From NCBI GenBank assembly GCA_016928955.1, contig JAFGJV010000041.1, forward strand, positions 1-35,787: a stretch of DNA of 35,787 nucleotides. Reading direction: 5' to 3'. The notes under the pieces are model-generated. The model was not told the DNA's origin and ran no database searches. It saw nothing but the letters and a program-made list of their open reading frames with translations. Below, in pieces: positions 431 to 665 of the stretch. The translations under genes were made by a program, and so were the position numbers. How positions within the stretch are numbered: position 1 is the first letter of the stretch; every line of letters begins with the position of its first letter. This DNA is from Spirochaetales bacterium (GTDB lineage: Bacteria; Spirochaetota; Spirochaetia; Treponematales; UBA12059).

Positions 431-568
431 CTCTGTGTCTCTGTAGTTAGCCTTTTGTAAGGGTCCGTTGGACACGGGGGGATACCCCGGGATTTCCACT
501 GGCGTTGTTCTCTGTGTATCTGTGGTTAGCTCTACAGTTCTGGTCCTTCGGACACGGGGGGATACCCC
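431..568 (+). repeat. two imperfect 58-bp direct repeats, each with two small hairpins
   Basis: Copies lie at 431-488 and 510-568. Both begin CTCTGTGTNTCTGTRGTTAGC and end GGACACGGGGGGATACCCC. Each holds a short stem GTCC-NNN-GGAC followed by a G-run/C-run stem around an ATA loop. A shorter third match, GTCTCTGGTTAGC, lies at 363-375. No coding frame is preserved between the copies. Function is unknown. The region 351-580 otherwise shows no recognisable gene. Confidence 0.6.
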
Positions 569-580
569 CCTGTACCCCCT

Positions 581-604
581 GCGCCGCTACGTGTCTCGCG
601 GCGC
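581..604 (+). other. hairpin with loop TACGTGTCTC
   Basis: GCGCCGC (581-587) pairs perfectly with GCGGCGC (598-604) around a 10-nt loop. The following hairpin at 606-635 has a different stem and a loop that matches 9 of 10 positions. Stem divergence with loop conservation points to selection on an RNA or single-stranded DNA structure. Confidence 0.6.
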
Positions 605-605
605 A

Positions 606-645
606 CCTGCGGTCCTACGAGTCTCGGACCGCAGGTTTTGACTTT
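606..645 (+). terminator. intrinsic-type terminator with loop TACGAGTCTC
   Basis: A perfect 10-bp stem (606-615 with 626-635) encloses a 10-nt loop and is followed by TTTTGACTTTTCC. It would end any rightward transcript coming from the repeat region. The first T-run overlaps the -35 box of the next promoter. Confidence 0.6.
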
Positions 646-665
646 TCCTGTCACCGCGCTATGCT
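638..665 (+). promoter_or_regulatory. sigma70-type promoter for the beta-barrel gene
   Basis: TTGACT (638-643), a 16-nt spacer and TATGCT (660-665) lie about 50 nt upstream of the ATG at 716. Confidence 0.45.

Follow-up and report, generated by a model that had tools for sequence, protein, structure and literature searches.

A previously unnamed family of short dispersed palindromes with a constant hairpin loop in one group of uncultured spirochaetes

Background

In the palindromic repeats known from bacteria, a tag usually marks the stem foot, and RAYT transposases are associated with the best-studied of them. Near the start of a contig from a Spirochaetales bacterium, two adjacent hairpins present almost the same 10-nt loop on stems of different sequence, which raises the question of what is recognised here and whether the pair acts in RNA or spreads as DNA. 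The window analysed in this study, a stretch of 35,787 nucleotides, is the start of contig C54 in a draft genome of 2.87 Mb and 59 contigs. The hairpins were examined by folding, covariance-model searches and comparison of their genomic surroundings, focusing on their structure, distribution, architecture and possible mode of spread.

The two hairpins and their surroundings

The features of the region are listed in Table 1. The preliminary description of this DNA had reported two adjacent perfect hairpins with loops of equal length and nearly the same sequence, and they are present as described. The stems comprise 7 bp in hairpin 1 (581-587/598-604; 8 bp including T580-A605) and 10 bp in hairpin 2 (606-615/626-635; 11 bp including A605-T636). 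The fold energy of positions 570-645 was -36.4 kcal/mol, compared with -22.6 +/- 2.7 kcal/mol in shuffled sequences (z -5.0). When a hairpin pair was defined by 7-bp stems with 10-nt loops, a distance of no more than 100 nt and at least 9 of 10 loop bases in common, one close pair with matching loops was found in the window and none in 60 dinucleotide-preserving shuffles. The stems had been called unrelated; placed in register, however, they read TGCG-CCGC/GCGG-CGCA in hairpin 1 and TGCG-GTCC/GGAC-CGCA in hairpin 2, both of the form TGCGnnnn/nnnnCGCA, with equal outer TGCG/CGCA pairs and inner pairs that differ only by compensatory changes. An open reading frame for an exported protein (716-1465), the start codon and ribosome-binding site of which were read from the sequence, lies downstream of the promoter-like sequence and had no match in Pfam.

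Table 1. Features identified around the hairpin pair in the window
Feature	Position	Strand	Sequence and remarks
Repeat, first copy	462..488	+	GGTCCGTTGGACACGGGGGGATACCCC; first copy of the 542-568 repeat
Arm-like repeat	512..532	+	CTCTGTGTATCTGTGGTTAGC (CTCTGTGTCTCTGTGG family); also CTCTGTGTCTCTGTAGTTAGC at about 431-451
Repeat, second copy	542..568	+	GGTCCTTCGGACACGGGGGGATACCCC; repeats the stretch 462-488; C41 and C43 carry related copies
Companion module	555..579	+	GGGGGGATACCCCCC hairpin, then TGTACCCCC linker touching hairpin 1; same order in C41, G020 and G022 copies; reads GGGGGGATACCCCCC-TGT-ACCCCC in the window (about 555-579)
Hairpin 1, type a	580..605	+	TGCGCCGC-[TACGTGTCTC]-GCGGCGCA; covariance-model match 40.8 bits
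Hairpin 1 loop	588..597	+	TACGTGTCTC, 10 nt; family loop consensus TRCGAGTCTC
Hairpin 2, type a	605..636	+	ACCTGCGGTCC-[TACGAGTCTC]-GGACCGCAGGT; covariance-model match 43.4 bits
Hairpin 2 loop	616..625	+	TACGAGTCTC, 10 nt; family loop consensus TRCGAGTCTC
Promoter-like sequence	638..665	+	TTGACT-16-TATGCT; directly after hairpin 2; weak consensus match only

Identification and distribution of related hairpins

A similarity search of the own genome detected related intergenic copies on C41 (TGCGGTCT[TGCGAGTCTC]GGACCGCA) and C43 (AGCGCCGC[TACGGGTCCC]GCGGCGCA), and at least three further hairpins of the form TGCGnnnn-TRCGAGTCTC-nnnnCGCA were found there on C41, C43 and C10; the second locus with the same loop on paired stems, proposed as a check at the outset, therefore exists. 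A first covariance model recovered additional copies in the own genome and in relatives. One copy of the family lies between the terminator of an upstream gene and the start of smc. A second model, built from 30 distinct copies and applied with a cut-off of at least 34 bits, gave 39 matches in 11 genomes of the same uncultured spirochaete family. In a phylum-wide sample of 393 genomes, scores below 5e-4 occurred only in members of this family; a few copies lay outside it, in a single further family of its order (for example in G080). Exact pattern matching against 85,000 species genomes returned 14 stretches, all in spirochaete metagenome-assembled genomes. Viral contigs yielded five pattern matches, none of them in element context, and no similarity to the element was found among plasmids. 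Strict and permissive Rfam scans gave no gathering-level match in the element (chance-level hits only, E 0.5-8), and none of the papers available to the literature search had the arm sequences or tRNA-tail palindromes bearing these hairpins. Being multi-copy, intergenic and stem-loop forming, the copies have the general properties of dispersed palindromic or stem-loop repeats, and they are a previously unnamed family of short dispersed DNA palindromes in one uncultured spirochaete group.

Loop conservation and stem covariation

Among the 30 distinct copies, six of the ten loop columns (T9, C11, G12, G14, C16 and C18) were invariant and two more nearly so. The stems varied in sequence and remained paired: 95.8% of stem cells were paired (80.6% in shuffles), 34 stem cells carried double changes (8.3 in shuffles), and seven of the eight stem pairs covaried, that is, were changed on both sides, G-U pairs being tolerated in some stems. 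The idea of a recognised structure, in RNA or single-stranded DNA, whose loop is conserved on paired stems of diverging sequence is thus supported. As the search model itself favours paired stems, matches to the loop core alone were used as a stem-free control, a purpose for which the loose pattern is suited, although it is too degenerate for counting copies. Loop-core matches in coding DNA had no stem, and none of 17 had the upstream modules described below; since they lack both, the matches form a bimodal population, and selection by the model alone does not account for the covariation.

The loops had also been suggested to kiss. This was not supported, because self-pairing was equal or better in 41% of shuffled loops and the duplex between the loops of hairpins 1 and 2 reaches only -2.7 kcal/mol. 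Mimicry of a tRNA T-arm was considered, as the loop resembles TTCGAGTC, and was rejected: nearly every copy has A or G at the second loop position, and the C-G closing pair around a 10-nt loop also contradicts it.

Module architecture and outer arms

The hairpins were found to be parts of a larger module. A G-run/C-run hairpin lies upstream in 29 of 37 copies and CCCC abuts the loop hairpin in 26 of 37, compared with 0/17 controls in both cases; the usual order is G-run/C-run hairpin, CCCC linker and loop hairpin, often within a larger inverted repeat. The outer arms of this repeat fall into two classes, namely CACAGAGACACAGAG/CTCTGTGTCTCTGTG (CACAGAG-type), which is the arm type that flanks GxxExxY genes, and copies of the 3' end of the neighbouring tRNA. 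Each of the 13 tRNA-linked copies runs antisense to its tRNA, and tRNA-tail copies lie close to nearly all of them. In the window, the stretches at about 431-451 and 512-532 are, as read from their sequence, relics of the CACAGAGACACAGAG/CTCTGTGTCTCTGTG-type arm, and the arm type of the 512-532 repeat recurs around elements in other genomes and around GxxExxY genes.

A second loop class (type b), TGCGCACTGCTC, 12 nt in length, occurs on the same TGCGnnnn stem framework and, among 149 relatives, only in this family. In G022, elements of about 145 bp carry the type b hairpin in opposite orientation to type a; minimal forms in G019 consist of arms and one hairpin of either class, and tandem hairpin repeats are present in G011:C260.

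At L167 (G015:C18), a type a hairpin ends 3 bp into its 3' stem and is joined without a gap to another module, which bears a type b hairpin; this junction suggests recombination inside the hairpin. At L097 (1-600), L077 and L087, the 3' end of a tRNA gene recurs in inverted form behind the gene and its terminator; such tail-to-tail units occur several times over, separated by DNA rich in hairpins.

GxxExxY genes (TIGR04256) were present in 14 of 23 genomes of the family and absent from G011, G021 and the own genome (G000, 99.5% complete). Arms of the same kind as those of the hairpin elements (CCACGGAG.../...CTCCGTGG) border GxxExxY genes in 6 of 18 loci, so that the gene family is a candidate partner of this arm class only. 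In related genomes, the palindromes flanking the genes resemble the hairpin elements in the type of outer inverted arm; the hairpin elements, in contrast, are gene-free, and mobility of GxxExxY loci is a candidate property only. At L197, L203, L206, L209, L210 and L213, the genes adjoin inverted arms of the CCACGGAG/CTCCGTGG type or are enclosed by them; these arms vary in sequence from one GxxExxY locus to another but still match each other within a locus. No transposase or other enzyme could be linked to the hairpin copies.

Filled and empty sites

Two pairs of sites bear on mobility. On C10 of the own genome (L097), there are two tRNA-Leu tail/terminator units of near-identical sequence; in one of them, a block of about 70 nt with a G-run hairpin and a loop hairpin takes the place of TTTTTC between the terminator and the tRNA-Leu tail copy. 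At L077 in G019, two tRNA-Ser tail units can be compared, and a plain hairpin loop in one corresponds to the module in the other. Both pairs show the gain or loss of a discrete block and, as comparisons between paralogous units, do not give its direction; loss from filled sites is also compatible with them. Inverted outer arms and these two paralogous filled/empty pairs may point to a MITE-like non-autonomous element, but the arms differ between loci, and no target-site duplication was found at the copies.

At L082 (G001:C435), two hairpin copies lie within direct repeats of 174 bp that are separated by 2.47 kb, and repeats of a gene 3' end, GGGACAGGAAGAGG(T/C)TGGAACC, border each of them; in this possible composite, the listing of open reading frames contained no recognisable transposase.

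Proposed mode of spread and alternative explanations

We favour, with a probability of roughly 0.55, a non-autonomous palindromic repeat that spreads as DNA into palindromes and whose loop is the recognition tag. The module, an 8-bp stem TGCGnnnn/nnnnCGCA with the loop TRCGAGTCTC, would insert into or beside the loops of existing palindromes and would be recognised through its loop while folded as a single-stranded or cruciform hairpin. Recognition of this kind would demand of the stem only that it stay paired. The recognising enzyme is postulated, and one candidate partner is the GxxExxY family, with which the outer arms are shared. On this view, two modules in tandem would have landed in the window, just upstream of the promoter-like region of the exported-protein gene. 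If the loop is the tag, it points to a structure-recognising enzyme and provides exact bait sequences for finding it.

A bolder form of this reading, which we put forward tentatively and regard as doubtful, takes the hairpins as mobile cassettes in which the apical loop is the sole tag and the stem is free. They would be moved by a putative enzyme, and their targets would be loops in other palindromes, some of these built from copies of tRNA 3' ends; two or more loop specificities would exist, TRCGAGTCTC and TGCGCACTGCTC among them.

Strong covariation around a constant loop, tolerance of G-U pairs and the position of hairpins near tRNA and mRNA ends could also be expected of an RNA element. 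Folded within a leader or 3' UTR, the hairpins would then either bind an RNA-binding protein or act in processing or stability next to tRNAs and mRNAs, and selection on the RNA fold would produce the covariation. We consider this unlikely. The antisense placement at every tRNA-linked locus, together with the mixed orientation of the two hairpin types in G022, disfavours a single transcript-level function; moreover, the copy ahead of smc indicates that the location is not tied to one transcript position, and Rfam holds no relative.

The hairpins could instead have been copied by tandem duplication and template switching, which would keep the stems paired with no dedicated enzyme. Taken as a full account, this makes them a by-product of palindrome mutagenesis, in which replication by fold-back or template switching maintains perfect stems and yields duplicate hairpins, and the loop has no dedicated recognition. 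Nested palindromes, tail-to-tail copies of tRNA ends around terminators and the tandem hairpins of G011:C260 are compatible with such a process, and template switching itself alters stems on both sides. It would, however, leave unexplained why a 10-nt loop and a second 12-nt loop are kept across several genera despite the turnover of stems, and why the order of G/C-run hairpin, CCCC linker and hairpin is fixed, which makes it improbable as the whole explanation.

The preliminary description had further noted a T-run at the end of hairpin 2 and suggested that a small RNA starting within 351-570 could have its 3' end here, near 640; a terminator is a related reading. The T-run does exist, as TTTT only (636-639); it is no part of the feature, since the 3' flanks of other family members vary and have no T-runs. 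As the copies lie in many unrelated intergenic contexts with neither a conserved T-run or terminator nor an Rfam match, and 351-570 is itself composed of dispersed repeats, a small-RNA end or terminator of this kind is very unlikely. Least tenable is a REP element mobilised by a RAYT (Y1 transposase), which short, dispersed and often paired intergenic palindromes would suggest: within 8 nt of the foot, CGTC was found in 1/37 copies (chance) and GTAG in 0/37, while Y1_Tnp (PF01797) is absent from the hairpin-bearing genomes G000, G004, G010, G011 and G020 and most numerous in G006, G007, G008 and G014, all without strong hairpins, so that the missing tags and the lack of correlation with Y1_Tnp genes exclude RAYT transposases as a general partner.

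Comparison with known palindromic repeats

REPs with GTAG or CGTC tags are short intergenic palindromes with stems of 6-13 bp, complementary stem changes, heterogeneous families and dimers, and the CGTC type has been reported in Spirochaetes (Di Nocera et al. 2013, PMC3733652). The spirochaete hairpins share the short palindromic intergenic form, the complementary stem changes, the heterogeneous families and the dimers. They differ in having neither a GTAG/CGTC tag nor an association with RAYT genes, in a conserved loop of 10-12 nt where most REPs have 2-5 nt (PMC3733652), and in being nested in tRNA-tail or CACAGAG-arm palindromes. Bacterial stem-loop sequence (SLS) families are likewise dispersed intergenic families that form stem-loops (PMC2267715); a term search of its main text gave no mention of Treponema, Borrelia, compensatory changes or covariation, and the spirochaete family was not identified in that text.

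Hairpin and double-hairpin elements of mitochondria (sponges and Allomyces) are often tandem and thought to be mobile, and those of Allomyces are without flanking duplications (PMC2800124); GC-rich palindromes flank tRNA genes in Neurospora mitochondria, according to a reference cited there. The mitochondrial elements thus resemble the spirochaete hairpins in form, frequent tandem arrangement and supposed mobility, but they belong to organelles and are not related to them by sequence. Sponge elements keep their stems and vary in their loops (PMC2800124), whereas the spirochaete hairpins show the reverse. By kind, the family is a dispersed bacterial palindromic repeat, distinct from tagged REPs and from the sponge mitochondrial hairpin elements. 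What sets it apart from known repeats is the constant loop, the two loop classes on one stem framework and the copies within tRNA-tail palindromes; through these nested palindromes, the DNA behind tRNA genes is also remodelled in an unexplained manner.

Other repeats at the contig start

Positions 1-86 of the window are identical to the starts of contigs C43, C26 and C20, all of which diverge from base 87. This stretch reads as a protein C-terminus (SEQWLNGKRYLPAEQTQS*) followed by about 26 bases and is probably the right end of a multi-copy insertion sequence that breaks the assembly. Positions 87-358 hold CTTACTATCTAC repeats at 22-bp spacing and then AGATAGACTATCTAAT repeats at 23-bp spacing. 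Similar arrays occur at C26, C40, C44 and C59, near contig edges and in some cases beside ends that resemble those of insertion sequences.
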